Assembly (NCBI GenBank): GCA_014376435.1 | Contig: JACMRL010000004.1 | Coordinates: forward strand, 62,001-126,000 | From: Bdellovibrio sp. | GTDB lineage: Bacteria; Bdellovibrionota; Bdellovibrionia; Bdellovibrionales; Bdellovibrionaceae | Length of the DNA stretch: 64,000 bases | Reading direction: 5' to 3' | Shown: one piece after another, positions 14,955 to 42,251 of the stretch | Layout of the letters: every line of letters begins with the position of its first letter | How positions within the stretch are numbered: position 1 is the first letter of the stretch | Made by a program: the position numbers and the translations under genes | Notes under the pieces: generated by a model | What the model saw: only the letters and a program-made list of their open reading frames with translations | Told to the model about the DNA's origin: nothing | Database searches by the model: none

Positions 14955-14996
14955 AATTTGATATTCTAGCAGGACCTGTTACAATCAGGAATTGAA

Positions 14997-16307
14997 ATGT
15001 CAGAAAAAAAGAAAGAACTTAAAAGTATTAAAAGCTCGCTGATGTCGCGTAGCTTTAGCATTGCTAAACTAGGCTTAGGCGCTGGTCTTAAATATGCTGG
15101 TTCTAAAATCACCAATACCTCCTTAGACAGTTTCCTCAATTCTCAGGCCGTCACTTTTGCAAAAGAGTTAGGCGAACTTAAAGGTAGCCTGATGAAGGCC
15201 GGCCAAATGCTATCAATGTACGGCGAATATTTCTTTCCGCCGCAAGCTAATCAAATATTAAAAAGCCTGCAGTCCGATTCTCCCTCGATTGAGTGGAAGA
15301 CGATGCACACTTATTTAAAAAAATATTTATCCCGTGATTTATTAGCCGAGCTTGAAATTGATCCTGTTTCGATTGGCTCTGCTTCAATGGGGCAAGTTCA
15401 CAAAGCACGCGTTAAAGCTACGGGTGAAATTGTCGCTATTAAAATTCAATATCCTGATCTGGAAAAAGCGATCGATTCTGACATTTCGGCTTTAAAAAAG
15501 TTATTGAAACTAACTAAGCTTATCCCGGCAGGCCTTGATTTGTCGGCCGTTTTCGAGGAAGTAAAATCGATGCTCCGCCAAGAGCTTGATTATGAAAACG
15601 AAGCCCGCCTCACGATGATGTACCGCGATTTAATTAAAGATGACCCACGCTATGTGGTGCCTAAAGTTTTTTTACGTTATTCAAACCGCCAAGTTTTAAC
15701 GACCGAATATTTGGAAGGTTTAAAAGCCGATCATCCGTTAGTTCAATCTTTGTCGCAAAAAAGACGCGATCAACTGTCTGAAAGTTTTTTAGATCTTTAT
15801 TTTAAAGAAATTTTTCAGTGGAATTTAATTCAGACGGATCCACATCTGGGCAATTACAAAATTCAAATTGATTCACTCGGTGACGACCGGCTGGTGTTAC
15901 TTGATTTTGGTGCATGTCGTGAGTTTAGTACAGAATTTATGCATAACTACCGCCGCATGATTAAAGGTAGTATTTTGCGTGATCGTAAGATGTTTATGGC
16001 CGCAGCAAAAGAACTGGGTTTTATTATCGAAGGCGACAAAGCTGATTATATTAAAGCCTTTGAAGACTTCTGCTACGAAACGGTCGAACCCTTTACGGTT
16101 GATGGCACTTACCACTGGAAAGACTCAGATCTTCCTGGCCGCGTAGTTAAAAAGGCTATTCAGTTTAAAAATTTTGATCTACGCAGCCCACCGCGAGAAA
16201 TTTTATTTTTAGACCGTAAGACTGGCGGCGTATTTATCTTTTTATCAGTAATGAAGGCCGATATTAATTCGCGAAAAGTGATTGATCCTTATTTAGCCCA
16301 AGTCTAA
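14997..16307 (+). CDS. ABC1/UbiB-family atypical kinase
   Basis: Member of the ABC1/UbiB/ADCK family linked to quinone biosynthesis and membrane lipids. The family-specific KxGQ motif is seen as LMKAGQMLS (about residues 64-72); the Ala-rich loop is GSASMGQVHKA; the catalytic loop is QTDPHLGN, where the usual Pro after His is Leu; and DFGACREF gives the DFG metal site. There is no obvious C-terminal membrane helix, unlike E. coli UbiB. It is followed 31 bp later by ctaA, so a respiratory context is likely. Confidence 0.85.
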   Translation: MSEKKKELKSIKSSLMSRSFSIAKLGLGAGLKYAGSKITNTSLDSFLNSQAVTFAKELGELKGSLMKAGQMLSMYGEYFFPPQANQILKSLQSDSPSIEWKTMHTYLKKYLSRDLLAELEIDPVSIGSASMGQVHKARVKATGEIVAIKIQYPDLEKAIDSDISALKKLLKLTKLIPAGLDLSAVFEEVKSMLRQELDYENEARLTMMYRDLIKDDPRYVVPKVFLRYSNRQVLTTEYLEGLKADHPLVQSLSQKRRDQLSESFLDLYFKEIFQWNLIQTDPHLGNYKIQIDSLGDDRLVLLDFGACREFSTEFMHNYRRMIKGSILRDRKMFMAAAKELGFIIEGDKADYIKAFEDFCYETVEPFTVDGTYHWKDSDLPGRVVKKAIQFKNFDLRSPPREILFLDRKTGGVFIFLSVMKADINSRKVIDPYLAQV

Positions 16308-16338
16308 AATAAGCTTTAACTTTGCTGGAGAGCTATCC

Positions 16339-29644: not shown

Positions 29645-29726
29645 GCGCGAGTGGTGGAATGGTAGACACGTACGTTTGAGGGGCGTATGCGCAAGCGTGG
29701 GGGTTCAAGTCCCCCCTCGCGCACCA
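29645..29726 (+). tRNA. tRNA-Leu (anticodon GAG)
   Basis: Acceptor stem GCGCGAG (29645-29651) pairs with CTCGCGC (29716-29722), followed by A and an encoded CCA (29724-29726). The anticodon stem is TACGT/GCGTA with loop TTGAGGG, so GAG at 29678-29680 reads CUC/CUU leucine codons. The T arm is GGGGG-TTCAAGT-CCCCC (29699-29715), and a long variable arm (about 29688-29698) fits class II leucine tRNA. The end of the gene is the left boundary of the island. Confidence 0.95.
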
Positions 29727-31381
29727 AATGTCAAGCTATGCGAACTCTTACTTTTAAAAAAATATGAACCCTCAGAAGGAACTTCTGAGGGTTTTGTTTT
29801 ATCGGCCGAAGCTAATTCTTGGTCATAATGCTGTTTATCGATGATCCACTGGATCTTTATCGAATCGACACCCACTTCAACTTTCTTAATAAATTTCTGC
29901 ACCATGGCTTTTTTCATATCGTGATCCATTGTTTTTATGAACTTTCTGAAACTTTTAGCAAACGCTTCGAATGTTTCTAAATCAATGAGTCTTTTTTCTA
30001 TGGGTACGGTGTGCCCGTGGTTTGATTTTGTAATCGCATCCATGATTTCGTTTTTTATGGCTTCTAGCTTTTCCATTTGTTTAAAGATCGGTGTTGCCGA
30101 CACACTTTTAGGAATCTGCGAAAGTCGTTCTGCTAAGGCATCAATTTGTGAGTTCACGCCGTAAAGTTTTGTTTTCAAGCGGTCCGATTCTTTTAAACCT
30201 GGTTTACCTTCGTGCTTGGCTTTTACTTCGTTCATTAACGACTTAATCATTTCCGGTTTCGTCACAAATCTCACAAGCTCTTGCCAGACTGCGGGCTCTA
30301 ATCGTTTTGCTGGTACTCGGTGTGGGTCACACTTAAAAATTTTCTTTGTCAGTGTAGAATCTCTTTTTGTGGCCCAGCTGTGCTCGTAGTAACCAACTTT
30401 ACCGCATTTTCCGGTCGCAGATTTTCCTGGCAAATGGTCACCGCAAGTCATGCAAAAATTAACTCCACTCAATAAGTATGGCAGTTTGTAAAAAGACTTT
30501 GGCTTCATCCTAGATTTATTTTTTGCGAGCTTATCGTTTACTCGCTTAAATGTAACCTCATCAATAATGGCATTCCAGACGGCGCGCACTTCTTTTTGTT
30601 CACCTTTTTGCGTGTAAACCTTAACTCCAACGTAGGCTTTGTTCTGTAAAATATTATGCAAGTTATCGACGGTAAAATGTCCAACACGCTTGTGCCTTCC
30701 ACCACCTTCCATATGTTTTTTGATCGAGTAGCTGTTATCATTTAGCCATTTTGCTGCGTGAGATAGACAGCCTTCTTTTAAATACGCCTCAAACGACGCA
30801 CGCACAGTGTTCGCAGCGTCTTCGTCGACATCCAAGTAGCCAAGTTTATCTGGGATTCTTTTATAACCTAGCGGGATGCAACCGCCGTTGTATAAACCAC
30901 GACTTGACCGGGCTTGAATGTTCGCACCGACGCGCTCACTGGTTTGTTTTCGCTCAAACTGTGCAAAGTTCATCAATTGAAATAAAAGCATTTCTCCGGC
31001 GGCTGAAGTAGTATCGAAATCTTCTCTAAGACTCATGAATCTACAGTTTTGGTCATGCATCATGTCCCACATGGATAAAAAATCACGGTTGTTACGGCTT
31101 AATCGTGAAAGTTCTGTAACCATCACAAGATTTATTTCTGAACGCTTTACGGCTGAAAGCATTTCCATTAGCTTCGGTCGATTCATGTCTTTCGCTGAAA
31201 TCCCGGCATCGACGTAGACACCAGTGATTTCACCAAAATTGCTGCGCGCGTTCCGGTAAGTAACGGCTTCCCGCAAGCGTTGCTCTTGGTTTTTGATTGA
31301 GCCTTCAGGATTTTCAGCCTGCTCTTCTGTAGAAACTCGAATGTATAAAGCGATTTTGTAATTTTTGTTTTTATTATCCAT
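29705..31381 (-). CDS. Large serine recombinase (E1), core protein ending at the tRNA att site
   Basis: Site-specific recombinase, 558 residues. The resolvase catalytic domain has the nucleophile Ser17 in LYIRVSTEEQ, plus DAGISAKDMNRPKL, ELSRLSRNNRDF and FAQFERKQTSERV. A Recombinase domain (about 165-290) follows, then a zinc-ribbon (CMTCGDHLPG, later CGK and KCDPH, about 307-355) and a coiled coil to about 450. The last residues GARGGT and the stop codon are encoded by the antisense strand of tRNA-Leu, so the protein lacks the HTH-like tail seen in related copies. It starts 8 bp inside the upstream small ORF, implying coupled translation. This is the only intact recombinase in the island. 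Confidence 0.9.
   Translation of the reverse strand: MDNKNKNYKIALYIRVSTEEQAENPEGSIKNQEQRLREAVTYRNARSNFGEITGVYVDAGISAKDMNRPKLMEMLSAVKRSEINLVMVTELSRLSRNNRDFLSMWDMMHDQNCRFMSLREDFDTTSAAGEMLLFQLMNFAQFERKQTSERVGANIQARSSRGLYNGGCIPLGYKRIPDKLGYLDVDEDAANTVRASFEAYLKEGCLSHAAKWLNDNSYSIKKHMEGGGRHKRVGHFTVDNLHNILQNKAYVGVKVYTQKGEQKEVRAVWNAIIDEVTFKRVNDKLAKNKSRMKPKSFYKLPYLLSGVNFCMTCGDHLPGKSATGKCGKVGYYEHSWATKRDSTLTKKIFKCDPHRVPAKRLEPAVWQELVRFVTKPEMIKSLMNEVKAKHEGKPGLKESDRLKTKLYGVNSQIDALAERLSQIPKSVSATPIFKQMEKLEAIKNEIMDAITKSNHGHTVPIEKRLIDLETFEAFAKSFRKFIKTMDHDMKKAMVQKFIKKVEVGVDSIKIQWIIDKQHYDQELASADKTKPSEVPSEGSYFFKSKSSHSLTFGARGGT
29722..29725 (+). other. Left att junction (tRNA-Leu / E1)
   Basis: CACC, part of the tRNA 3' end, followed by AAATGTCAAGC. 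The same right-hand sequence (TAATGTCAAGC) follows CACC at 37012-37015, where the left side is not tRNA. Divergence between the copies begins at this tetranucleotide, so crossover is inferred to occur here. Confidence 0.65.
29767..29800 (+). terminator. Terminator for tRNA-Leu, embedded in the recombinase gene
   Basis: A perfect 12-bp stem AACCCTCAGAAG / CTTCTGAGGGTT with a 3-nt loop and the tail TTGTTTT. It lies about 40 bp after the tRNA on the plus strand, inside the recombinase coding region on the other strand. An equal hairpin is found at 37057-37090 in E3, so the element carries its own replacement terminator for the tRNA it enters. Confidence 0.8.
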
Positions 31382-31589
31382 CGGTGCCTGTCCTTCTTAA
31401 AGTAGGTGTTAATTTTTCAACTAACTCTGAACTTTGAAGTGACGTAACACTTAAGGGCTTATCTTTTTGGAGCTGGCATATTTGAAAATACACAAGCTCT
31501 GCGAATTCTGCAAGGTTCTGTTTAAATTCATCATCTGGTAAGATCAAAAAATCATGAGTCACTTTTAATAGCTCCCATTTTTTCTTCAT
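31374..31589 (-). CDS. Small cytoplasmic protein translationally coupled to the E1 recombinase
   Basis: 71 residues (MKKKWELLKVTHDF...), helical and without signal or membrane segment. GGAG lies 4 nt before ATG 31589, and its stop overlaps the recombinase start by 8 bp. The E3 copy at 37475-37690 differs at only four residues (L15S, I to M, Q to K, R to K). The E2 cassette has a different small ORF at the same place. It is a candidate recombination directionality factor or recombinase partner; the function is not known. Confidence 0.75.
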   Translation of the reverse strand: MKKKWELLKVTHDFLILPDDEFKQNLAEFAELVYFQICQLQKDKPLSVTSLQSSELVEKLTPTLRRTGTDG

Positions 31590-31689
31590 AAAACTCCAAA
31601 TTATTTCTATTTAAAACTTAATTCTTTACTCAATTCGTCATTTTCTTATTCTTTCCTTCAACTATCCATACATTAACCACCAGCTACTA

Positions 31690-31805
31690 TTACCGCCGCC
31701 GCCTTATCTCTTGTCACCAGTAGGAGACCACTTTCTCTCAACTTGTTGGGAGGGAGTGGTCTCCTACGATCAGGGGGCAAGAATCAGATAAGGCGGCGGT
31801 GGTAA
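31690..31805. other. Long nested hairpin of cassette E1
   Basis: Outer arms of 20 nt at 31690-31709 and 31786-31805 match at 19 of 20 positions (TTACCGCCGCC.../...GGCGGTGGTAA). Inside, TAGGAGACCACT (31721-31732) and AGTGGTCTCCTA (31755-31766) pair perfectly, and the loop itself can pair further (CTCTCAAC with GTTGGGAG). The result is a nearly continuous 116-nt hairpin upstream of the recombinase operon. Equivalent structures occur in E2 and E3. It could be DNA (recombination or replication site) or RNA. Confidence 0.75.
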
Positions 31806-31860
31806 GTGTTTGTATTTGCTTTAATGTTTTTAGATTTCAGTTTTATTTATTTTTCAAATG

Positions 31861-31881
31861 ACCACTTCCATTTACAGTGGT
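31861..31881. other. Small stem-loop with a compensatory change between E1 and E3
   Basis: ACCACT-tccatttac-AGTGGT here; the E3 copy at 37963-37983 reads ATCACT-tccatttac-AGTGAT. One C-G pair has become T-A, with both partners changed, so pairing is kept while sequence differs. This supports a selected structure in the region that follows the long hairpin. Confidence 0.5.
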
Positions 31882-32153
31882 GACTGAGTTATGTCTTCGC
31901 TTTCGATTTGGCTCATTTACCTTAAAGTTTTTTTGTTCTCAAAAAATGAAATGGTCGAATCCGGTCTTAATCGCTTACCAGATCCCTCGCGTTCGATCGT
32001 AAGGTTTCGTTTAAGACTCAAGGTATAAGGATCATGAAACAGGCCTCTTACTATATATTATTGCAAGGCATGCCAACTATTCTGCAAAATTAGTTAAGTG
32101 TTAAATATCGTTCAGCTAAAATAAAAAAGTGCGATTTTAGAAACTCGTGAAAG

Positions 32154-32246
32154 TTTCAAATAATTTGAAATATAAAATATGAATTCGAATCTTTTCAATG
32201 ACTTAAGTGATTACAAATAATTTGTAAAACTTCAAAATATTTGAAG
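32154..32246. repeat. Three 17-bp palindromes in AT-rich cassette DNA
   Basis: Three 17-bp palindromes share the core TCAAA or ACAAA, three central bases, and TTTGA or TTTGT: 32154-32170, 32211-32227 and 32230-32246. The stretch from 31806 to 32280 otherwise has no credible gene. The repeats could be binding sites for the C-terminal HTH-like domain of the recombinase or of an unknown regulator. In E3 the first copy is intact and the second and third are partly decayed. Confidence 0.5.
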
Positions 32247-32280
32247 ACATCTCAAATAATAGAAATTCAATATTAACAAT

Positions 32281-32313
32281 AAAAAAGGCTAACCTTTTGA
32301 GTTAGCCTTTTTT
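32281..32313. terminator. Bidirectional intrinsic terminator
   Basis: AAAAAAGGCTAAC and GTTAGCCTTTTTT form a perfect 13-bp stem with a 7-nt loop; it has A and T tracts on both sides and so can stop transcription in both directions. It lies 30 bp beyond the stop of the minus-strand cargo gene. A degraded version is present in E3 at 38290-38308. Confidence 0.85.
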
Positions 32314-32342
32314 AAAAACATTAGTGTTAAGAAAACTAGGAT

Positions 32343-32660
32343 TTACTTAACAGGCCAAATTATATTACATCGGCTGTCTTTGAATCCGATGTTTTTAGAT
32401 GTAACGACTAAATTTTTATCAGCGCCTGTGACATAATACTCAACAAGATAAGTTCCGTCAGCCTCGTATGGACTATTCCATATTTTAACTGTGTAGATAT
32501 CAACTAAGTTAATATTTATCGGATTGAAGTTATTCATTTGGAAATAAGCTTGCGCAGTCTTATTGCATTCCGGCGTGAGCCCTTCAGTTGCTATTATATC
32601 GGAGTAAGCATTCGTTATTAGACCGCTGAATAAAACAAGACAAATAAGCAATTTTTTCAT
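32343..32660 (-). CDS. Small secreted cargo protein of E1, unknown function
   Basis: 105 residues, starting at ATG 32660 with GGAGG 8 nt upstream. Residues 1-20 or so form a signal peptide (MKKLLICLVLFSGL, then cleavage near NAYS). The mature part is about 85 residues with two cysteines (in LTPECNKTA and DSRCNIIW) that could form one disulfide, and a beta-rich look (VDIYTVKIWNSPYEADGTYLVEYYV). I recognise no family. It is the only cargo gene in this cassette. Confidence 0.75.
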   Translation of the reverse strand: MKKLLICLVLFSGLITNAYSDIIATEGLTPECNKTAQAYFQMNNFNPININLVDIYTVKIWNSPYEADGTYLVEYYVTGADKNLVVTSKNIGFKDSRCNIIWPVK

Positions 32661-32683
32661 AAAAAATACCTCCATTAAAATTT

Positions 32684-32711
32684 TTAATACTTAACTGTTT
32701 ATACCATTCAA
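32684..32711 (-). promoter_or_regulatory. Predicted promoter of the E1 cargo gene
   Basis: On the minus strand TTGAAT (32706-32711), 16 nt, then TATTAA (32684-32689), about 24 nt before the cargo start codon. It fits a sigma-70-like promoter although the -35 element is imperfect. Confidence 0.5.
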
Positions 32712-32801
32712 CTGCGGTTTTTCCTCTCAAATTTATTTAAATTGTAAGCTTTTCTATTTTTAACTAAACCCAATGAATTAAGAGTGCCTTTTAAAGCTCT
32801 C

Positions 32802-32963
32802 CTATTTCAATAACATCGCTTTAGGCCATTTCGACGCTTTCGAATCCTGAATCAATAGAATCTGAGCTTTATGCACAAAATTAATAATTCGCGGCAATTG
32901 TCCAGTTGAAACAGCTAAAATAGCTACGACCGAGACCGCCGAGATAAGGTTTTCGAGGCCCAT
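32802..32963 (-). CDS. Predicted 53-residue membrane protein at the right end of E1
   Basis: ATG 32963 with AAAGGA 4 nt upstream opens a 53-codon frame that overlaps the end of the recombinase C-terminal domain in another frame. It has one hydrophobic helix at about residues 6-20 (LISAVSVVAILAV) and a basic tail. The homologous stretch in E3 (39853-40014) has the same length with no indels, and several changes fall at third codon positions without changing the amino acid (GTC/GTT, TCA/TCC, TTG/CTG, GTG/GTT, AAA/AAG), which supports past coding function. The E3 copy has lost its ATG and gained a stop. Function unknown. Confidence 0.55.
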   Translation of the reverse strand: MGLENLISAVSVVAILAVSTGQLPRIINFVHKAQILLIQDSKASKWPKAMLLK

Positions 32964-34054
32964 AAAATCCTTTCGCTTTCTACTTTCGTCAGACCATCCA
33001 ACTTATAATTACGTCGTCGAATGTTCCGATAATAGTTTTCAATAGCGTAAGGCGACTTATTAAAATGTTTCGCCAAGCTATTAGTGTCCATGCCATCAAT
33101 CCAACGCAGTTTTGCCAGCTCCGCTAGATTTAACCTTGAGTCACGCCACTGTATAGGATACGTTTTATCCATTGTCAGAGGTTCTTCTAGCCTAGGACCG
33201 TGGGCACCATTACCGTCAGTACTCGAACCCACAATCTGGGTCGGGTTAAACGGAATGAGTTTTCCTTCTTTTTCTTGAGTTTCGGTTCGTTCAATATAAA
33301 TTCCATCGGTTCCAGTTGCTTTTAAAGCTTCTTTAGCTGGAACATACATTCCAATTTTGATTTTCATCGGGTGGATTTCTACAAATTTAAGTAAATTACT
33401 AAAAATCGGTCTTTGTTTTTCTGCCTGAGCGGTATCTAGTCGCTCTATTGTTCTTCTTATTCTATCAACAAATCCCTTTTCATCAATTTCATGTTTCATG
33501 GCTTCATAAATATCTTTGGCTAACTTTTCTTTAGACAATTTCAATTCTTGAATTTTCAATTGCCCCTGTCTAATTTGTTCATAGAACAAATCAGCAGGCA
33601 GATCGGTCGGAAGCTCTGACACGCGCTGAACCAAATTATTGACTTTTTTTGACGTCGCTAGAATTTCAGATTCAATCTGCTTTTGTCGTGATTGAACTTC
33701 AGGAAGCTCTTGATTTACTTTTGATCTGTAAATTGAAACCCATTTCTCGATAAGCTGTGGGTCATTTAAAAGTTGCTTTAAGGAATTAAGTACGATTTCT
33801 TCGATTCTAAAGGCACGAACATTTTTGATCTGACATTCGTGGGCCAATTCTTTTGTAAACGGATTTTTAATTTGGGCATGGCCATAATAAAAATGTTTTT
33901 CTTTGCTTCGGCCAGTTCCTCTTTTGCCGCCCATACGTTTACCGCATTCACCACAGACAAGTAACTCAGTCAGTGAAAACGGATGATTCTTCCATTCGTC
34001 AGGTTTGTACTTATTTTTATTTTTCGTAAGACGATCTTGAACTTGATTCTTCAA
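32924..34054 (-). pseudogene. Composite: C-terminal half of the E2 recombinase joined at att to the E1 C-terminal domain
   Basis: Codons from about 34045 down to 33209 encode the end of the E2 recombinase core: zinc-ribbon (CGECGKRMGG, then CQIK) and coiled coil. At CACC (33205-33208) the frame passes into the detached C-terminal part, GAHGPRLEEPL followed by an HTH-like stretch (LNLAELAKLRWIDGMDTNSLAKHFNKSPYAIENYYRNIRRRNYK) that recurs in E3 next to host DNA. The frame starts with a TTG inside the gene at 34054, which is an artefact of the frameshift described for the upstream piece. Confidence 0.7.
33205..33208 (+). other. Internal att junction E1/E2
   Basis: CACC flanked by GGACCGTGGG on the left (the E1 right end, same as at 40256) and ATTACCGTCAGTAC on the right (the E2 left end). 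The left flank reads CGTGGGC-A-CCA, which is like a tRNA acceptor 3' strand plus discriminator and CCA. The reading frame is continuous across the junction. Confidence 0.6.
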
Positions 34055-34859
34055 TTATTGGTTTCCATACGGCAGGGATTAATGTTACTTCACCAGATTT
34101 ATCTTTGACTTCACGTTTGGCGATATAGATTTTATTTGTTAAAACTGATTGTAGCGTATCGACTGAGAAAAAGTTTCCGCCTTTGGCGATTCCATGTTTG
34201 TTAGTGTAAGATTTATTTCTAATTCCAAGTTCGGTTAATTTCATTTGAGTTTTACGAACGCTTCCTTCAGATAGGAAAATTTCAAATATCTTTTGAACTT
34301 GAGTAGCTTCTTGTTCGTTAATCAGTAGCTCGCCTTTGTTTTTGGTGCTGCGGTCATAACCAAGTGGGATTGTACCGCCATTGAACAGACCGCGCTTGGC
34401 TCGAAATTCCCAGTTTGCAGAAATTCGTTCTGCCGTTTGCTTTCTTTCGTACTGCGCGAAATTGATAAGATTGAAAACCATCATCTCGCCTGCAGCGCTT
34501 GTTGTATCAAACTGTTCACGAAGGGTTATAAAGTTACAATTATGCTTTTTAAAAAGATCCCAGATCTCGCAAAAATCTCGGATGCTTCGAGATAGCCTAG
34601 AAAGTTCAGTCGATATGATCAGATTAGTCCGGCTAGCTTCAACGTCTGAAAGCAGCCTTCTAAATTCTGGACGATTCATGTCTTTAGCTGATTTTCCTTC
34701 ATCGCAATAGAATTCAATGATCGAACCCCAGTTGGAATTCATTTTGTTTTGATGTTCAACGTCTTCGATAATGCGATTTTTTTGTGAAACAAGTGATCCA
34801 TCCGGAATTCGGGCCTGCTCTTCATTCGATACCCTAAGATAAATTCCAACTTTTCTCAA
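34017..34859 (-). pseudogene. Large serine recombinase (E2), N-terminal part before a frameshift
   Basis: Resolvase domain with nucleophile Ser in YLRVSNEEQ, then DEGKSAKDMNRPEF, ELSRLSRSIRDF and QYERKQTAERI, and most of the Recombinase domain. The frame fails after AVWKPIIEE; comparison with the E1 protein (AVWNAIIDEVTFKRVNDKL) puts about 7 residues there, while only 10 nt remain before the codons for VQDRL in the next frame. That implies an 11-bp deletion near 34040-34050. The start is TTG 34859, overlapping the stop of the small ORF upstream as TTGA. Confidence 0.8.
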
Positions 34860-35017
34860 GCTGCCTGCCTTTGACCAGCAGTCTCAGCTTCAAAACTAAC
34901 TTCGTCAATTTCAAGCAAGCACTCGATCAGCCGCAAAATACACTTTTCATACTCAGATCTATTAATTTTGATCTGATCAATTTCGATTCTTATTTCTAAT
35001 TCCTTTTTTTTACTCAA
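34856..35017 (-). CDS. Small protein translationally coupled to the E2 recombinase
   Basis: A TTG at 35017 opens 53 codons (MSKKKELEIRIEIDQ...), a very charged helical protein with no signal or membrane segment. Its TGA overlaps the recombinase TTG start as TTGA. A tiny upstream frame of seven codons (MMIKNRA) with a GGGGG ribosome binding site ends at the same TTGA, so the TTG may be reached by coupling. It occupies the same place as the 71-residue ORF of E1 and E3 but has no visible similarity to it. Confidence 0.55.
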   Translation of the reverse strand: MSKKKELEIRIEIDQIKINRSEYEKCILRLIECLLEIDEVSFEAETAGQRQAA

Positions 35018-35084
35018 GCTCTATTTTTTATCATCATCACTGACCCCCTTTATTCTATTCACCCTTTACTATTTCAATACCCAT

Positions 35085-35179
35085 ACCACCAAATTCAACC
35101 CCCCGCTTCGTGACCACTTCCCCGTACATCGTTAAGGGGGATTGGTCACGAACCGCAGAAGGGGGTTGGGTTTGGTGGT
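35085..35179. other. Long nested hairpin of cassette E2
   Basis: Outer arms ACCACCAAATTCAACCCCC (35085-35103) and its partner at 35161-35179 match at 17 of 19 positions; inner arms TTCGTGACCA (35107-35116) and TGGTCACGAA (35143-35152) pair perfectly. The outer arms are unrelated in sequence to those of E1 and E3 but keep the fold. The apical part is shared by all three: GACCACTT, a short spacer, a G-rich stretch and ATTGGTC (AGTGGTC in E1). Confidence 0.7.
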
Positions 35180-35245
35180 CTTCGCTAAAATTCTGATTTG
35201 ATTCAAGGACTTAATAAAATATATCAGTGATGATGACCATAATTT

Positions 35246-35393
35246 TTACCAGAATGAAATTCTGCATAATTATTCTGGTAATTTTTAATTTCAATTTGAT
35301 TTTTTTATTTTTGAAAATTTGAAATTTGAACGTAATCACGTACAGCTGATTTTGAATTGCTGAAACATTTAAAGCAGTTGGCGTTGTACGTGA
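35246..35393. repeat. Two inverted repeats in the E2 non-coding stretch
   Basis: The 427-bp gap between 35018 and 35444 contains, besides the long hairpin, TTACCAGAAT / ATTCTGGTAA (35246-35255 and 35272-35281, perfect) and TCACGTAC / GTACGTGA (35336-35343 and 35386-35393, perfect, 42-nt loop). No credible gene is seen in the gap. They may be operators or recombinase accessory sites. Confidence 0.5.
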
Positions 35394-35444
35394 AATTTAA
35401 TGCTATTCGTAAATCCGGCCGCAAGCAGGACGCGCATTTTAAAT

Positions 35445-36023
35445 TTATTCAAATAATGCTTTGAATTTTGGAAAATCCTTTAAATCTTTTAGGCCTACTT
35501 TAGATTGAAAGTCTTTTAAAATAGAATTTAGAAAATTACTGATAGTAAGCTCGTCAAAACTACTAAAAACAGTAATACCACTTTTCTTTAAAAGTGCAGC
35601 GGTTACACCAATTCCTCTTTTGAAACCACCCGCAGGCCAATGTTCTTCTTTAAGCAGAACATTGGAACCACAAGAAGGGCTCCCGTCCATTAGAATTGCA
35701 TATTTTATATTTGAAGCTAGAAGTTTACTAACGAACTGGTGAGCTCCATCGATTTGTTCTTTTGTTACGTCCTGACCATTTTCGTTAATAACGACAGCAG
35801 TTTTGTCTAGGACACTGAATCCATCACCACCGACTATTCTTAGATTAGGACGAGGTGTTCCAAACACACTATCCTCAGGACAAAAGGGAACTAGAGTAAC
35901 GTGGTTATTATTCTGTAGCTCTTTGACAAAATTGCTTAAAAGATCAGTCCCATTAAAATTACATTTCGTTCCTAATAAACAACTACTTACTCCAATTTGG
36001 ATTTTTTCACTTTTTGTATTCAT
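35445..36023 (-). CDS. DUF523 (TudS-like) Fe-S protein, cargo of E2
   Basis: 192 residues with the DUF523 motifs: GVSSCLLGTKC (Cys15 and Cys21), PFCPED (Cys48) followed by FGTPRPN, and GSPSCGS (Cys118). Members characterised as TudS are [4Fe-4S] enzymes that remove sulfur from thiouracil. Three of the four cysteines could hold the cluster. The use of GTPRPN in place of the common EVxGG motif is typical of the shorter branch. Strong AAAGGA upstream of ATG 36023. Possible role: nucleobase detoxification (inference). Confidence 0.8.
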   Translation of the reverse strand: MNTKSEKIQIGVSSCLLGTKCNFNGTDLLSNFVKELQNNNHVTLVPFCPEDSVFGTPRPNLRIVGGDGFSVLDKTAVVINENGQDVTKEQIDGAHQFVSKLLASNIKYAILMDGSPSCGSNVLLKEEHWPAGGFKRGIGVTAALLKKSGITVFSSFDELTISNFLNSILKDFQSKVGLKDLKDFPKFKALFE

Positions 36024-36096
36024 CTTTCCTTTTTAGCAGACAAGATTCTTACCTGTCAGTAGCGGAATCTAAATTTGAATATACTCATACAGGGGC

Positions 36097-36501
36097 TTAA
36101 ATTCGGTCCATAAACTGACGTGCAGTGATAATATCTACGTTTTGAAATTTTTTAAGAACAAGTAAGTCACGTCTGTCGCCGCTTACAATATAAGTGCATT
36201 TACCTTCGACAGCACATTCTAAAACACGGTTATCGGCTGGACATCTTGGAATCGCATTGATTGTCTGTGTAGGAATAACTATTTCAGCAATAGAAAAAAT
36301 AGGTGAAGTTAAAGTCTTCATTTCATGAGCAGTAAGGCCAAATTTATCGGAACTCATTACACGCTCTGCTTCTTCGATTAAAAAAGGTGACGTCACCCAG
36401 ATAAATTTTTTAGATAAAGCAGCCTGTACTACCTTCAATGGCAGCCCACCAAATAAAAGAGCAGAAACTGTAATATTGGTGTCAACAACAGCGCGAATCA
36501 T
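36097..36501 (-). CDS. PIN-domain toxin (COG1569-like)
   Basis: Predicted RNase toxin of a toxin-antitoxin pair. PIN acidic residues are Asp7 (VVDTN), Glu43-Glu44 (LIEEAER), Asp90 (PADNRVLECA) and Asp108 (SGDRRDLL). The 134-residue length and order fit the PIN family found with ribbon-helix-helix antitoxins. It starts 5 bp after the antitoxin gene. It may stabilise the island by post-segregational killing (inference). Confidence 0.85.
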   Translation of the reverse strand: MIRAVVDTNITVSALLFGGLPLKVVQAALSKKFIWVTSPFLIEEAERVMSSDKFGLTAHEMKTLTSPIFSIAEIVIPTQTINAIPRCPADNRVLECAVEGKCTYIVSGDRRDLLVLKKFQNVDIITARQFMDRI

Positions 36502-36506
36502 ATGCT

Positions 36507-36746
36507 TTAAGTACGCTTGCGCAAAGTGGAAAGCACATCTTCAACAACTGAAGGCTTAAAGCCCTTTTTTTTGAGTCTTTTTGAAACGGCTTTTTGTGTC
36601 TGCTCAAATTCACTGGTGCTCATATATTTACGAACTGCTTCGCGCAGATATTCACTAATTGTTCTATGTTCAGCTTTTGCATGTTTTTGAATTTCAAGTT
36701 CAAACTCAGGTGGGACGGAAAAAGCTACTACTTTGGTTGTACGCAT
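36507..36746 (-). CDS. Ribbon-helix-helix antitoxin
   Basis: 79 residues: a short beta strand (KVVAFSVPPEFELEIQKHA) and helix region (RTISEYLREAVRKYM) like CopG/MetJ-type DNA-binding proteins, followed by a charged tail that would bind the toxin. ATG 36746 has a perfect AGGAGG. It precedes the PIN gene as antitoxins usually do, and an operator-like palindrome lies just upstream. Confidence 0.85.
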   Translation of the reverse strand: MRTTKVVAFSVPPEFELEIQKHAKAEHRTISEYLREAVRKYMSTSEFEQTQKAVSKRLKKKGFKPSVVEDVLSTLRKRT

Positions 36747-36764
36747 AAAAGCCTCCTGCCTGAA

Positions 36765-36794
36765 ATTATACCTAGTTATACTAAGTAATACTAG
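36765..36794 (-). promoter_or_regulatory. Promoter and operator of the toxin-antitoxin pair
   Basis: A perfect TATAAT (minus strand, 36765-36770) stands 13 nt before AGGAGG. Next to it CTAGTTATACT-A-AGTAATACTAG (36772-36794) is a 23-bp imperfect palindrome (9 of 11 pairs), suitable for the ribbon-helix-helix antitoxin. The operator overlaps the last codon of the adjacent recombinase tail. Confidence 0.65.
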
Positions 36795-37011
36795 TGTTTT
36801 TTAGAACTTTGACGAACAAATGCTTCTGAAGCTCCAATTAGTTGAGCTACGTCACAATGTGATCCATACTTTTTAACCAGCTGCTTCAAATTTATAGGAT
36901 TTAATAGCTTAGCTTCTGGATAGGCATCAAGCTCAACACATAAAATCGGCTCAGATAGGTTTAATTGATTTTTGAGGTATAAAACCGGTTCGTCTACTTC
37001 GGTTACTCGCC

Positions 37012-37015
37012 CACC
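37012..37015 (+). other. Internal att junction E2/E3
   Basis: CACC between GGTTACTCGC plus C (E2 right end) and TAATGTCAAGC (left end of the E1/E3 type). The left flank ACTCGCCCACC resembles the tRNA-Leu 3' end CCTCGCGCACC. Confidence 0.6.
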
Positions 37016-37056
37016 TAATGTCAAGCTAAGCGAACTCTTACTTTTAGAAAAATAGG

Positions 37057-37090
37057 AACCCTCAGAAGTAACTTCTGAGGGTTTTGTTTT
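37057..37090 (+). terminator. Intrinsic terminator near the E3 left end
   Basis: AACCCTCAGAAG (37057-37068) and CTTCTGAGGGTT (37072-37083) form a perfect 12-bp stem with TTGTTTT after it. It is the counterpart of the tRNA-Leu terminator at 29767-29800, at the same distance from att. Confidence 0.7.
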
Positions 37091-37284
37091 GTCGGCCGAA
37101 GCAAATTCTTGCTCGTAATGCTGCTTATCAATGATCCAGTCTATCTTTATCGAATCTACGCTCACTTCGACTTTTTTAATAAATTTCTGCACCATGGCTT
37201 TTTTCATATCCTGATCCATTGTTTTTATGACCTTTCTGAAACTTTTAGCAACAGCGGGGAGCATTTCCATAAGCTCCGGTCGAT

Positions 37285-37482
37285 TCATGTCTTTCGCCGA
37301 AATCCCGGCATCGATGTAAACGCCCGTGATTTCACCAAAATTACTGCGCGCGTTTCGATAAGCAACGGCTTCCCGCAGGCGTTGCTCTTGGTTTTTGATT
37401 GAGCCTTCAGGATTTTCAGCCTGCTCTTCGGTTGAAACTCGAATGTATAAAGCGATTTTGTAATTTTTTTTTTATTATCCAT
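37285..37482 (-). pseudogene. E3 recombinase remnant, N-terminal codons out of frame
   Basis: ATG 37482 begins as in E1 (MDNK) but one base is missing in the A-rich stretch after codon 4, shifting the frame; the DNA still matches the E1 catalytic-domain start. This frame itself is meaningless. It shows that E3 cannot make its own recombinase. Confidence 0.75.
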
Positions 37483-37690
37483 CGGTGCCTGTCTTTCTTA
37501 AAGTAGGTGTTAATTTTTCAACTAACTCTGAACTTTTAAGTGACGTAACACTTAAGGGCTTATCTTTTTGGAGCTGGCACATTTGAAAATACACAAGCTC
37601 TGCGAATTCTGCAAGGTTCTGTTTAAATTCATCATCTGGCAATATCGAAAAATCATGAGTTACTTTTAATAGCTCCCATTTTTTCTTCAT
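37475..37690 (-). CDS. Small cytoplasmic protein, E3 copy
   Basis: 71 residues, intact, four differences from the E1 copy at 31374-31589. I start at ATG 37690 (GGAG 4 nt upstream), to match E1, rather than five codons earlier. It remains open although the recombinase behind it is broken, which hints that it may have a function of its own or that the damage is recent. Confidence 0.7.
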   Translation of the reverse strand: MKKKWELLKVTHDFSILPDDEFKQNLAEFAELVYFQMCQLQKDKPLSVTSLKSSELVEKLTPTLRKTGTDG

Positions 37691-37789
37691 AAAACTCCGA
37701 ATCATTTCTATTTAAAACACACTCTTTACTCAATCCGTCATTTTCTTATTCTTTCCTTCAATTAATAGTTCTTTATCCAACAGCTACTA

Positions 37790-37907
37790 TTACCGCCGCC
37801 GCCTTATCTCTTGTCACCAGTAGGGGACCACTTTCTCTAAAGCTTTGTTGGGAGGGATTGGTCTCCTACGATCAGTGGGCAAGAATCAGATAAGGCGGCT
37901 GCGGTAA
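37790..37907. other. Long nested hairpin of cassette E3
   Basis: Outer arms at 37790-37809 and 37888-37907 match at 19 of 20 positions; the single mismatch is at a different place from that in E1 (right arm GGCGGCTGCGGTAA versus GGCGGCGGTGGTAA). The inner arms TAGGGGACCACT (37821-37832) and ATTGGTCTCCTA (37857-37868) pair at 10 of 12 positions as DNA, with one mismatch allowable as G-U in RNA. The stretch 37691-38289 has no gene. Confidence 0.7.
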
Positions 37908-37962
37908 GTGTTTGTATTTGCTTTAATGTTTTTAGAATTCAATTTTATTTATTTTTCAAATG

Positions 37963-37983
37963 ATCACTTCCATTTACAGTGAT
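37963..37983. other. Small stem-loop, E3 copy
   Basis: ATCACT-tccatttac-AGTGAT, the counterpart of 31861-31881 with one base pair changed on both sides. Confidence 0.5.
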
Positions 37984-38201
37984 GACTGAGCTATGCCTTC
38001 GCTTTCGATTTGGCTCATCTGCTTTATCGTTTTTTGTTCTCAAAAAATGAACAAGCCCCTTACTATTTATATTGCAAGGTATGCCAACTTTTCTGAAAAA
38101 TGAGTTAAGTCCTAAATATTATTTAGTAAAATTAAAAAATGTGATTTTTCAAATCTTAAAAAGTTTCAAATAATTTGAAATATAAAATATGAATTCGAAT
38201 C

Positions 38202-38227
38202 TTTTCAATGACTTAAGTCATTGAAAA
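38202..38227. repeat. Perfect 26-bp palindrome in E3
   Basis: TTTTCAATGACTT followed by its exact reverse complement. The E1 counterpart (around 32192-32217) keeps the left half but has three changes on the right. A palindrome of this size in AT-rich DNA upstream of nothing but cassette functions looks like a protein-binding site. The E1-type TTTCAAATAATTTGAAA palindrome is also intact at 38164-38180. Confidence 0.5.
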
Positions 38228-38289
38228 TAATTTGTAAAACTTCAAATTTTGTGAAGACATCCCAATTAATAGACTCAATTTTAAGAATA

Positions 38290-38308
38290 AAAGGCTAACT
38301 TAGCCTTT
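38290..38308. terminator. Degraded bidirectional terminator of E3
   Basis: AAAGGCTAA-C-TTAGCCTTT, the shortened counterpart of 32281-32313. The stem is nearly perfect but the loop is one base and the T tract is short, so it may be weak. It lies 30 bp after the stop of the HExxH gene. Confidence 0.5.
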
Positions 38309-38337
38309 ATCAAAAATTTCGTGTTAAGAGACAAGTA

Positions 38338-39081
38338 TTATCTAACCGCAGGCATGGATGTACTACTTTTAATGACAGCCGCTTCGGCTGGAATAATGGC
38401 CTTCATAAAGTCGACGTAGTTTTTTGATTCAAGACATTTTTTTTCGACTTCGAAAATTTCTTTACCCGTCATTTCAACACCAAATGTTGAAATATATTTA
38501 TCGTAAATAAACTGACCAGGCCTTTCAATTGCGGTCTTGTTATCAAAAGCAAGGCCCTGCTTCGAAAGATTAATATTGGTTTGGTAAGCCCGTCTTTCTT
38601 GGCAAAATAAGCCCTGCATAACAAAGTTGACTTGCCTTTTATTTGCGGCAATAAATTCACTTTTATTTTTTTGCTGTAATCCTTTGATAACAAAGGAACC
38701 AATTGCATCAACAGCTGGATGAGTCTCTAGAAACTGATCAAACTCTTTCTCGTCTCGGACATGCTGTAACTCGTGCGCAATGGCATGAGCTCTCTGACTA
38801 GCAGGTAAGTCTTTGCTGATTAAAATTTCATATTTTTTCGTAACCGGATCTTGGCGCACGCCGCCCCCATTATGACCGGACCTTTTTTCAATTTCAACTT
38901 GTTCAAGAAGCAGAATTTTCACGTCAGAAAATTTGCTGTTCAAATCGTTAAAAATTTTTAAACCTTCAGGGTAATTCATCAATGTCGACGCTGCCGGTGA
39001 ATCTGATGACAACTCCGCATTTGCAAAAGACCCTGAAAGAAGAAAAGCGCACAAGTATATTTTTTTTGATGCAATGTTCAT
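38338..39081 (-). CDS. Secreted zinc-metallopeptidase-like protein (HELQH), cargo of E3
   Basis: 247 residues with a signal peptide (cleavage near SFANA, about residue 22). A zinc-binding motif AHELQHVRDE (HExxH, about residues 102-106) and a downstream ERRAY (about 162-166) that could supply a third ligand resemble small gluzincin-type peptidases. Two cysteines (QGLFCQERR and KKCLES) may form a disulfide. I recognise no precise family. GAGGA precedes ATG 39081. It is followed by the lipoprotein gene on the same strand upstream. Confidence 0.7.
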   Translation of the reverse strand: MNIASKKIYLCAFLLSGSFANAELSSDSPAASTLMNYPEGLKIFNDLNSKFSDVKILLLEQVEIEKRSGHNGGGVRQDPVTKKYEILISKDLPASQRAHAIAHELQHVRDEKEFDQFLETHPAVDAIGSFVIKGLQQKNKSEFIAANKRQVNFVMQGLFCQERRAYQTNINLSKQGLAFDNKTAIERPGQFIYDKYISTFGVEMTGKEIFEVEKKCLESKNYVDFMKAIIPAEAAVIKSSTSMPAVR

Positions 39082-39128
39082 AGAGTCCTCAACGAATTAA
39101 TAGGCTTAAAAGTCAAATAAATGATTTT

Positions 39129-39665
39129 TCATCTTACTGCTGGTTCAACATGACTGCTATCAGGCGAATCATTTCTTTGGGCTTGCTCTGGGCACCAATA
39201 ATCAGAATCGCGTAGTTTTGGGATATAGCTATTTTTTAAGTAGTTGATATTTTCAGTAGTTTTTCGATCATTGACAGAATCTTCTTCTAAAATTTGAAGC
39301 GTGGCTTTTGATCTTGCTTCTAATATGTCAGAAATTCTATCTGGGTGCCAGATTGCCTTCACGGCAGGGTATCGAACATCTAAAGCTATTTCTTTTACTT
39401 GTTTCATTTGAGCTTTAGTAACCGACGTTTGGGGGCGACTTTCCAGTCTTTCAATATACGCGTCTAGAATATAATTGAGCGATCTTAAACGCTTTCCGTT
39501 GAATAAATGGGTTCCAGTATATCCACATTTAACTACTTCTTCAATTTTAGACCAGCCCTCCGTAGGTTCTGAATTCGCTGGAGTACGTACATGATCTTTG
39601 TTCAACTCGTTTGTCGATGCACAGCCAACGACAATTGCGATCGATATTAATACCAAATAATTCAC
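39129..39665 (-). CDS. Lipoprotein of unknown function, cargo of E3
   Basis: 178 residues from GTG 39665 with AAGGAG 5 nt upstream. Lipobox VVGC with Cys15, then a helical mature part (RLRSLNYILDAYIERLES...). Cys47 and Cys163 are also present. It lies 47 bp before the secreted peptidase-like gene on the same strand, so the two are probably one transcript and could be enzyme and partner (inference). Confidence 0.7.
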   Translation of the reverse strand: MNYLVLISIAIVVGCASTNELNKDHVRTPANSEPTEGWSKIEEVVKCGYTGTHLFNGKRLRSLNYILDAYIERLESRPQTSVTKAQMKQVKEIALDVRYPAVKAIWHPDRISDILEARSKATLQILEEDSVNDRKTTENINYLKNSYIPKLRDSDYWCPEQAQRNDSPDSSHVEPAVR

Positions 39666-39852
39666 AATTACTCCTTCACTAAAAAAACGAAGCTAATTTA
39701 GATTGTAACTGGATTTTTTTATTTAGGACATAAGTTCGCTAGACCCTTTGTATAACTGGACTCTTATACAGCTCCGCGATGTACCGCTTTTATTAAAAAC
39801 AAATAAATTCAGGTCGGCCTCGAAATCGAATAGAATACCTTTTTAGGCCCTC
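39666..39852. other. Non-coding stretch at the right end of E3
   Basis: Together with the overlapping remnants to 39974 this is about 300 bp without a working gene. I see only the promoter side of the lipoprotein gene and a short repeat GTATA/TATAC near 39750-39770; nothing convincing. Confidence 0.3.
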
Positions 39853-40014
39853 CTATTTCAATAACATCGCTTTCGGCTATTTTGATGTCTTCGGTTCCTG
39901 AATCAATTAAATCTGAGCCTTATGAACAACATTAGTAATTCGCGGCAGTTGTCCAGTGGAAACAGCTAAAATAGTTACAACCGAGACCGCCGAGATAAGT
40001 TTTTCGAGGCCAAT
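39853..40014 (-). pseudogene. Decayed copy of the 53-residue membrane ORF
   Basis: Same 162-bp length as 32802-32963, with no indels. The start codon is ATT and a TAA interrupts after KAQI (about codon 34), so it cannot make the full protein. Confidence 0.6.
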
Positions 40015-40263
40015 AAAATCTTTTCGCTTTCTACTTCCGTTAGACCATCTAACTTATAATTAAGTCGTCGAATGTTCCGATAATAGTTTTCAATAGCATA
40101 AGGCGTCTTTTTGAAATGCTTCGCCAAGCTATTTGTATCTAGTCCTTCAATCCAACGCAGTTTTGCCAGCTCCGCTAGATTTAACCTTGAGTCACGCCAC
40201 TGTATAGAATACGTTTTATCCATTGCCAGAGGTTCTTCTAGTCTAGGACCGTGGGCACCATAT
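39975..40263 (-). pseudogene. Detached recombinase C-terminal HTH-like domain at the right end of the island
   Basis: Encodes GAHGPRLEEPLAMDKTYSIQWRDSRLNLAELAKLRWIEGLDTNSLAKHF and so on to SRRSRL, closely matching the end of the 32924-34054 frame. Immediately to the right of CACC (40256-40259) the similarity stops and host sequence begins. It has no start of its own. The arrangement is what opening a circular element inside the recombinase gene would leave at the right end. Confidence 0.75.
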
Positions 40264-40814: not shown

Positions 40815-42251
40815 ATGATGAAAAATTTAATCTTTGTTATTTTATTTTGTATGACATCAAGCTTAGCCTATGCAGAGCCTTTACCAAAAGCACCCATTGA
40901 TGCAAATCATCCGGGTAGCCTGGTGTACGCACATTCGCTATTCCACGAAACCATCGCAATTCGAGGCCGTAGCGTTGAATTTTATGCGCCCGCTGATTTT
41001 AAAACCAGTGGCGTAAAAATTCCGGTTATTATTTTTGGACACGGGCAAGCCATCGACGTGACTGGGTATCAAGAAACGTTAGAGCACATTGCTCGTAAAG
41101 GTGTCGCGGTTATTTTTCCAACTTACGATACAGGTTTCTTTGATCGCGACTGGCGAAGAATGGCCAATGACTTTGTCAGTTTAAGTCATGATGTTTTAAC
41201 AAAGTACTCGGCTTTTTTAAACTTGGATCAAGTTGTTTTTACTGGTCACTCAAAGGGTGCCTATGTAGCCCTTGTCGCCGCGGGCCTTCCCAACAGTAAA
41301 CAAACAGGCAAACAAATTGTGAAGCCCGCATCTATCGTATTATTTGCACCAGCTGGATTTGACACTGACTACATAAAAAATATTGATCCGTTAACGGCGG
41401 TAACGCTTGTGTGGTCTGATAAGGACTCCATCGTGAGTGAATCGTTGGTTAATCAAATTTATGAACAACTTCCTTCACAAAAAAAACAATTTATAACTGC
41501 AAGCAGTTACAAAGGCACCACGCCTGAACTAAACGCTAATCATTTTTTTCCATTATCAAAAAGTTTTTTCTTCGGTGGAAATGATGGAATATCACCCTTT
41601 CACTTTCAAGGAGTATGGAAATGGCTTTTGGGTGCAACTCAAGATCTTCAGAGCGGCAAAAAGACGGATAATATTTATTTATACGGTAACGAAGCCTTAG
41701 ATACCGGAATTTCAAGCATCAAACACAAGGTTAAAAAAAGCTGGTCGCTCCGCGCCGCTAATGCAAAACAAAGCCAAGAACTTCAAACGGTCGATTACGT
41801 TGATGTTTCAAAATATCTAGGCACTTGGTATCAAATCGCACGCAACCCCCTTTTCTTTGAAGGCAACTGCGCATGCTCTAGACAGGTTTTATCAACAACT
41901 TCTGATTCGAAAATTCAGGTTTATAATTCATGTAATGATGTAACTGTAACGGGTCCCCTTCGTGAAATTAGCGGTTTTGCCACAAACGAAGATCCAATGA
42001 GCAATTCAAAATTCAAAGTTGATTTCGGCTTACCGAAAAAGGGTGACTATTGGATCATCGGTCTTGGTACAAACTACGAATACGCGGTGGTTTCTGATCC
42101 TAGCCGACGTTCACTCTACATTTTGTCGAAAACTCCAACCTTGGATCCGATCCTTTTTAATGAAGCTTTAGCAAAAGCTTCTAGCCAGCTAGACACTTCA
42201 AAACTAATTATGACAATCCAGCAACAATGCCAGTACCCGGTTGTTAATTAA
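40815..42251 (+). CDS. Secreted fusion of an alpha/beta hydrolase and a lipocalin
   Basis: 478 residues. A signal peptide ends near AYA (residue 20). Residues 45-290 are an alpha/beta hydrolase of the dienelactone/PET-hydrolase-like type: nucleophile motif GHSKGAY (Ser near residue 144), oxyanion stretch FGHG, and NANHFF with a likely catalytic His. From about residue 340 a bacterial lipocalin (Blc-like) follows: KYLGTWYQIARNP, then SDPSRRSLYILSKTP. AAGGA lies before two adjacent ATG codons (40815 or 40818). The fusion is unusual; a lipid- or ester-handling role in the periplasm is likely. Confidence 0.8.
   Translation: MMKNLIFVILFCMTSSLAYAEPLPKAPIDANHPGSLVYAHSLFHETIAIRGRSVEFYAPADFKTSGVKIPVIIFGHGQAIDVTGYQETLEHIARKGVAVIFPTYDTGFFDRDWRRMANDFVSLSHDVLTKYSAFLNLDQVVFTGHSKGAYVALVAAGLPNSKQTGKQIVKPASIVLFAPAGFDTDYIKNIDPLTAVTLVWSDKDSIVSESLVNQIYEQLPSQKKQFITASSYKGTTPELNANHFFPLSKSFFFGGNDGISPFHFQGVWKWLLGATQDLQSGKKTDNIYLYGNEALDTGISSIKHKVKKSWSLRAANAKQSQELQTVDYVDVSKYLGTWYQIARNPLFFEGNCACSRQVLSTTSDSKIQVYNSCNDVTVTGPLREISGFATNEDPMSNSKFKVDFGLPKKGDYWIIGLGTNYEYAVVSDPSRRSLYILSKTPTLDPILFNEALAKASSQLDTSKLIMTIQQQCQYPVVN

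Follow-up and report, generated by a model that had tools for sequence, protein, structure and literature searches.

How do three stretches of DNA, each bearing the marks of a serine recombinase gene and each with unrelated cargo, come to lie end to end against a single transfer RNA (tRNA) gene, and why does each hold a short coding region detached from the recombinase that it seems to belong to? The question is raised by a locus in the genome of a Bdellovibrio sp. (assembly GCA_014376435.1, contig JACMRL010000004.1, positions 62,001-126,000 of the forward strand), a stretch of 64,000 nucleotides (nt) referred to here as the window, in whose coordinates positions in the window are given. We consider it highly probable that the three units, designated E1, E2 and E3, are integrative mobilizable elements (IMEs) of one family distributed throughout the phylum, characterized by a serine integrase that partitions its own gene and by a hairpin that is a probable origin of transfer (oriT).

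The target of integration is a tRNA-Leu(gag) gene on the forward strand (29645-29726), recognized both by ARAGORN and by the Rfam tRNA model. Four copies of CACC, at 29722-29725, 33205-33208, 37012-37015 and 40256-40259, form the borders of E1 (29722-33208), E2 (33205-37015) and E3 (37012-40259), all three on the reverse strand. Pairwise alignment of the units places these borders where an earlier note on this DNA had put them: over the 100 base pairs (bp) inside the borders, E1 and E3 are 93% identical at the left and 97% at the right, as opposed to 24% and 25% over the 100 bp outside, and the borders can be called exact because identity collapses just beyond CACC. Elsewhere E1 and E3 share homologous blocks of 83-96% identity, separated by unshared DNA encoding unrelated predicted proteins. 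E2 is constructed on the same plan, with different ends, a detached domain of another type and a recombinase only 46% identical to that of E1 (E1 residues 8-286). The stack described in that note, with two units sharing ends and DNA, a third of another lineage, and cargo peculiar to each, is thus borne out; its recombinase core in every unit is intact in E1, frameshifted in E2 and mostly lost in E3.

The integrase core of E1 (29705-31381, reverse strand, 558 residues) is a single protein with Resolvase N-terminal, Recombinase and zinc-ribbon domains, all over Pfam cut-offs. It crosses the unit border into the tRNA gene, where its stop is a TGA in the antisense T-loop. Exactly at the far border of each unit, with the frame open across the border, begins a detached C-terminal domain, recognized by profiles and border phase as type A in E1 (32924-33208) and E3 (39975-40259, the chromosome end of the stack) and type B in E2 (36791-37015), again on the reverse strand. 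Within the stack these domains are fused in frame to the neighboring unit: the E2 core (33205-34859) is broken by a frameshift near 34040 into two open reading frames (ORFs; 34859-34017 and 34054-33205), the second of which runs on into the domain of E1, and the E3 integrase remnant (37012-37482), which matches E1 residues 5-81 and 473-555 and has lost most of its core, runs into the domain of E2. The ORFs crossing the four window borders do so in one and the same codon phase; core and domain of a single unit would therefore form a continuous frame in a circle, and in the stack cores are connected to the domains of neighboring units. A predicted attachment site inside the serine-integrase gene itself explains the detached domain. 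Integration seems to exchange a tail of 59-102 residues for antisense tRNA codons, a tail that is restored in frame by a tandem neighbor and would also be restored by a circle.

Iterated profiles, searched with the core parts of the chimeric window ORFs masked by X, collected 22 detached domains of the two types, including the three in the window. In all 22 the homologous part starts at the border GG (the borders of L069 and L073 being placed by hand), preceded, outside tandems, by unrelated sequence. The ratio of nonsynonymous to synonymous substitution (dN/dS) was 0.14-0.37 in eight of nine pairs and 0.65 in the other, the pairs being short, not independent and more than 68% identical in nucleotides. 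The domain shows weak profile matches to helix-turn-helix folds, and an AlphaFold model of it alone was of low confidence (predicted local distance difference test, pLDDT, 50). Nine of the 22 domains contain no methionine codon. As a separate observation, a short ORF resembling type A lies just upstream of a small serine recombinase (frame of about 230-280 residues) in four genomes (G030:C35, G034:C14, G051:C4 and G053:C143), possibly a free-standing relative of the domain.

Relatives of these elements are widespread. At E <= 1e-60 the E1 integrase has matches in 47 of the 140 genomes of the order; for the phylum as a whole, counting these 47, the figure is 107 of 368. Eighty regions were fetched, from which six shorter duplicates (L041, L042, L045, L053, L054 and L055) were dropped, leaving 74 of the 85 listed places outside the window, or 75 loci with it. 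ARAGORN called a tRNA or transfer-messenger RNA (tmRNA) at the integrase 3' end in 51 of the 75, the targets comprising Leu, Ser, Met, Arg, Gln, Val, His, Phe, Ala and Pro tRNAs as well as tmRNA; among the remaining 24, some end in a tRNA-like sequence that escaped the program. The end of the RNA gene is crossed in phase 2 by 45 of the 51 integrases. Both ends of the element are present in 13 relatives, 3.8-11.4 kilobases (kb) apart, and these tRNA-anchored units at other places, together with tandems in two relatives, support the reading of separately inserted units on one plan. A test outside the order used criteria set in advance and 20 regions chosen for strong matches and upstream room: 17 had a tRNA or tmRNA at the integrase end, all 17 in phase 2. 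In the remaining three, which lack a called tRNA, one (L231) is an intact fusion and two (L232 and L239) are without the domain. A named genome collection yielded three loci, one of them, on a Bdellovibrionota contig, a close relative. All 707 matches in phage records and all 3190 in plasmid records were below 60% identity, the best 20 listed of each reaching no more than 30%, and no relative was found in the viral contigs searched. (L060 was excluded from protein alignments A3 and A4.)

The attachment sites of these loci obey a common pattern. In the 13 relatives with both ends, a common sequence of at least six bases, TGG plus the next three (for example TGGTGC, TGGTAC or TGGCGG), is present at the left and right junctions (attL and attR). 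Counted from the border GG, GTTC occurs at -20 in the integrase-side arm of 41 of the 51 loci, and over 137 occurrences of the site core, GAAC follows at +24 in 16 cases, other offsets from 8 to 44 accounting for three or fewer each; one of the 16 (L082:3236), with only four codons after it, was discounted as chance. Outside the order, 14 of the 17 have GTTC at -20, and seven a matching core with GAAC at +24 and an open frame after it (of only 33 residues in one case, and present twice at one locus). GTTC was found between -8 and -44 in none of 20 flank-side arms. The copy in the tRNA is the T-loop, at +19; its count there (51 of 51) is not used as evidence, since nearly every tRNA has the motif. 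The two arms of the site carried by the element (attP) repeat the T-loop motif in inverted orientation; their center of symmetry falls between the fourth and fifth base from the border GG, with the outer ends 24.5 bp away from it as compared with 19.5 bp for the tRNA copy. Because the attP arms carry this inverted motif and the flank half has none, the specified half of the target site (attB) appears to be the tRNA half. Offsets of +24 in the attP arms and +19 in the tRNA amount, as read from the DNA, to a shift of 5 bp; in the LI integrase system the zinc-domain motif lies 5 bp nearer the center in attB than in attP (PMC3783163). In all 22 copies of the detached domain codon 9 is GAA and the first base of codon 10 is C, the residue at codon 10 varying among P, H, L and Q; this is the pattern that constraint on the DNA, additional to that on the protein, would produce.

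Six natural junctions join core and domain in frame. Genome G017 (L108) has a core-plus-domain frame of 784 residues, and further on, at tRNA-Met, a second integrase with one TGA; in G302 (L231/L250) a 647-residue fusion is followed by a second unit, without a recognizable integrase, at tRNA-Leu. L074 encodes a 771-residue fusion with a run of N within the domain, and that of L058 is cut by the contig end seven residues into the domain. The two inner window borders, where the cores are damaged, complete the set. An empty site is seen in genome G070, where the sequence that flanks the element in its sister G072 ends at a distance of 13 bases from the tRNA-Ser(gga) 3' terminus. Between flank and tRNA G072 itself has about 6.2 kb, including about 570 bp that lie outside the element and have no explanation. 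With units and tandems elsewhere and an empty site in one sister genome, the segment is not one conserved operon. The earlier note had suggested seeking strains that differ in the number of units (one, two or none) at this tRNA-Leu. None was found in 13 congeners, where the right flank yielded matches of only 28-40 bases and the protein encoded there none, hence no empty site for the window's own stack; queA loci were scanned for tRNAs only.

A second constant component of the units is a nested hairpin on the reverse strand. It lies at 31690-31805 in E1 (covariance model match 31716-31771), at 35031-35236 in E2, where hairpins are nested (match 35102-35157), and at 37790-37907 in E3 (match 37816-37873), the first two located by folding as well as by the model. 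Six hairpins fold at z -6.4 to -10.5 (E1 -10.5, E2 -6.4), and a covariance model built from relatives and the three window hairpins matches all three units, placing these structures beyond chance. Among 21 aligned hairpins (alignment A2, without the near-copies L075, L059 and L060, and without L081, where a simple scan favored another hairpin) the covariation score was 0.471, against 0.165 in shuffles and reached by none of 500; pairs changed on both sides numbered 11 of 16 (reached by 5 of 500), and further pair types showed no excess over shuffles (150 of 500). An Rfam search with the hairpin returned only sub-threshold matches to unrelated families. The model matches 47 of 73 loci (L071 and L072 excluded), 19 of which supplied it, and in all 47 the hairpin lies upstream of the integrase, on its strand, at distances of 247 to 1896 nt. 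It also matches 12 of the 20 regions outside the order and 72 of 140 genomes within it, some of which (G003 and G013) gave no match to this integrase.

The neighbors of the hairpin are informative as to its role. Sixteen hairpin regions were fetched for strong matches and upstream room (L220 was left out and L212 served only in the neighbor listing). In L213, L223 and L216 the hairpin adjoins an ORF of 256-279 residues, which Replic_Relax matches narrowly above its cut-off in the first, below cut-off in the second and not at all in the third; a TraG/TraD-type coupling protein, over cut-off, lies beside it in L213 and L216, and ORFs judged by eye to resemble tyrosine integrases lie near it in L210, L217-L219, L221 and L224. 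L211 combines CagX, TrbI and coupling-protein matches over cut-off with the hairpin, followed by a serine integrase that runs into tRNA-Gln and has the same three domains over Pfam cut-offs, a locus that looks like an integrative and conjugative element (ICE). Replic_Relax (PF13814) corresponds to the MobC relaxase family (PMC5357655). Among relatives of the window integrase, this family is matched over cut-off in ORFs adjoining the hairpin in L037, L061, L084 and L085 and overlapping it in L082, below cut-off in L073, which also encodes a coupling protein, and is absent in L069. The window genome itself holds a further copy (L252; G000:C35:285000-301328, 13713-16329), in which the hairpin (E 2e-7) directly follows tRNA-His and precedes a 272-residue ORF without a Pfam match and, at the contig end, a coupling protein over cut-off; this is a possible helper locus for E1-E3. 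Since the hairpin recurs beside relaxase-like and coupling-protein genes and at an ICE-like locus, its best reading is that of a probable oriT. No transfer gene was found over cut-off among those window ORFs that were scanned.

These features can be accommodated in a single scheme. In this proposal attP would lie inside the element's own integrase gene, between the catalytic and zinc-ribbon part and the helix-turn-helix-like C-terminal domain. The circle, which we infer, would encode a full-length integrase catalyzing recombination between attP and the 3' terminus of a tRNA or tmRNA gene, whereupon the core would read into the antisense tRNA and the C-terminal domain would be left at the far end, severed from the integrase start. 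As the tRNA half-site would survive, a new element could enter beside the tRNA and lend its domain in frame to the older integrase, generating stacks in which the youngest unit is expected next to the tRNA; the window integrases, intact in E1, frameshifted in E2 and most decayed in E3, fit that order. The hairpin would act as an oriT served by a relaxase and type IV machinery, with the relaxase-like gene carried by some units and supplied in trans to others, E1-E3 among them. It is a more tentative idea, to which we give somewhat less than an even chance, that integration is a switch in which a C-terminal DNA-binding domain is swapped for a tRNA-encoded stop, that stacking revives or re-targets neighbors, and that a family reading the T-loop has in this way colonised many tRNA and tmRNA genes across the whole phylum.

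Several observations count against this scheme. Six of the 51 integrases cross the RNA gene end out of phase (phase 1 in four, phase 0 in two). For 21 loci adjacent to a tRNA, a search of 7 kb or more upstream revealed no far border; some far borders may lie beyond the fetched DNA, because the tandem integrases of G017, in a more distant clade, are about 25 kb apart. The domain arm of E2, GGTGGG, is a poorer match to the GGTGCG of the tRNA, and 26 of the 73 loci gave no hairpin match. Methionine codons occur in 13 of the 22 domains, all of which have GTG, TTG or ATG, so that separate expression of the domain is possible. In G017 and G302 the intact integrase is the outer one rather than that adjacent to the tRNA, and decay therefore does not follow position in general. 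Finally, no circle, excision or transfer has been seen.

Other explanations may be set beside the proposed insertion of three separate, self-partitioning elements. The 93-97% identity of the E1 and E3 ends, and the homologous blocks running through both units, might be taken to reflect duplication and decay of one island, an origin that is highly improbable given the unrelated cargo, the position of E2, of another lineage, between the two, borders that are att sites, and the units, tandems and empty site in relatives. It might also be argued that the overlap of attP with the integrase gene is mere economy, with a tail that is idle once integrated and of little use before, and a split without consequence. 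The E1 core of 558 residues already holds all recognized integrase domains, and relatives in which no domain was found still have an integrase at a tRNA. Yet the tail has kept its frame and its helix-turn-helix-like pattern in 22 copies of two types, with the mostly low dN/dS ratios given above, and even though part of this constraint may stem from an att site within the first ten codons, we regard simple economy as distinctly unlikely.

The hairpin admits its own alternative, as an RNA leader for integrase expression or the replication origin of the circle, for which its position upstream and on the strand of the integrase in 47 of 47 loci, its strong RNA folding and the lack of transfer genes in E1-E3 can all be cited. 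This reading is unlikely, though it keeps a real share of the probability; against it are the recurrence of the hairpin beside relaxase-like genes, coupling-protein genes and tyrosine integrases, its presence in genomes without this integrase, and the wide range of its distance from the integrase. Three familiar kinds of element were considered and rejected for the stack itself: an integron cassette array, as the units have, or once had, serine recombinases of their own; insertion sequences, as the unit ends are att sites at a tRNA; and a prophage, as no phage structural family was found among the window ORFs scanned.

The remaining contents of the units, all on the reverse strand, vary under the common plan. 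E1 has a small ORF overlapping the integrase start (31374-31589, from the ORF list, without a Pfam match) and a cargo ORF of 110 residues (32343-32675; ORF list and Pfam scan). In E2 a small ORF of 53 residues (34856-35017) is accompanied by cargo (35445-36746) encoding a 2-thiouracil-desulfurase family protein, a PIN protein and a ribbon-helix-helix-like protein, the last with a sub-threshold NikA-like match. E3 comprises, besides its small ORF (37475-37705), a 247-residue protein with a sub-threshold Peptidase_M78 match and a 178-residue orphan (38338-39665). The small coupled ORF is, at a guess, a candidate directionality factor. The cargo of relatives includes a helicase-nuclease (PADLOC matches PDC-S37 and Hhe), an McrBC component, an ATPase-Toprim-like protein, and RES-Xre and other toxin-antitoxin-like pairs; in L057, L061 and L037 large defense-like proteins lie between domain and hairpin. 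Adjoining the island in the window (40815-42251) is a protein with a weak alpha/beta-hydrolase match and a strong lipocalin match, without a match in the 13 congeners.

A few individual loci depart from the general arrangement. In L154 (G067:C1:1362000-1381000) about 14 kb separate the flank seen in G072 from the same tRNA-Ser, with a 20-bp repeat of the tRNA end at the far side, which suggests a different kind of island stacked with this one. At position 15953, in integrase orientation, of L083 (G077:C1), the border joins DNA that is neither a recognizable tRNA nor the domain, with a detached domain upstream; we take this border as a rearranged or off-target insertion. From position 2218 of L040 (G030:C26), in the same orientation, the integrase adjoins the 3' half of a tRNA-Leu, missed by ARAGORN, which looks interrupted; a suspected group I intron there gained no support, Rfam giving no match at cut-off. 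Some contigs end exactly at the att junction (L058, G084:C210; L067, G103:C52) or at the hairpin (G022:C53, G022:C26 and G022:C76), which may reflect mixed junctions, several copies or a structure that breaks assembly.

By the usual description of IMEs, the units have an integrase and attachment sites of their own; as for an oriT or relaxase without mating apparatus, they have a hairpin common to relaxase and coupling-protein loci, whose function is predicted from sequence. With them, both ends of an element can be located by a readable rule, and the idea that a C-terminal swap controls integration is opened to test. Their serine integrases seem to recognize a motif common to all tRNAs, and in Bdellovibrionota the units offer small islands a plausible means of conjugal spread.

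Among known systems, the suicidal integrases of archaeal elements of the SSV1, pTN3 and pT26-2 type are alike in having attP within an integrase gene that is split at a tRNA, the missing part of which a related newcomer can supply; they belong to the tyrosine recombinases, their C fragment holds the catalytic domain, and a review calls them exclusively archaeal (PMC8371274). Here, in contrast, the recombinase is of the serine type, and the N part keeps the catalytic and zinc-ribbon domains, losing only the tail. The window integrases are thus predicted to work in part like these SSV-type enzymes, without being members of their group. The integrase of Myxococcus phage Mx8 is a tyrosine recombinase. 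Its attP lies in the int coding sequence, and integration creates a new int 3' end with changed specificity; Mx8, unlike the units, is a phage, and the portion of the source available describes no detached selected domain, stacking or T-loop motif (PMC6070905). Streptococcal IMEs with serine integrases are likewise small elements, IMEs having an oriT with or without a relaxase, and in IME_Spy2096_SNF2 the recombination site lies within the serine integrase gene; they differ in that 14 of 16 with known sites are in rumA or ICE protein genes, not tRNA genes, and the accessible part of that work mentions neither a conserved detached domain nor re-fusion in stacks (PMC5357655). Large serine integrases of the LI/A118 type share the Resolvase, Recombinase and zinc-ribbon domains and a 5-bp shift of the motif between attB and attP, so far as the available text shows (PMC3783163), whereas the units here encode an extra C-terminal domain past attP and target tRNA and tmRNA ends. 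The earlier note's statement that there is no described equivalent was too strong, as the units fit IMEs and att sites inside integrase genes are known; what stands is the combination of integrase, domain and stack, of which a literature search mostly outside subscription journals found no account. The family is best viewed, in relation to these systems, as an apparent bacterial, serine-recombinase counterpart of the integrases that disrupt their own gene.

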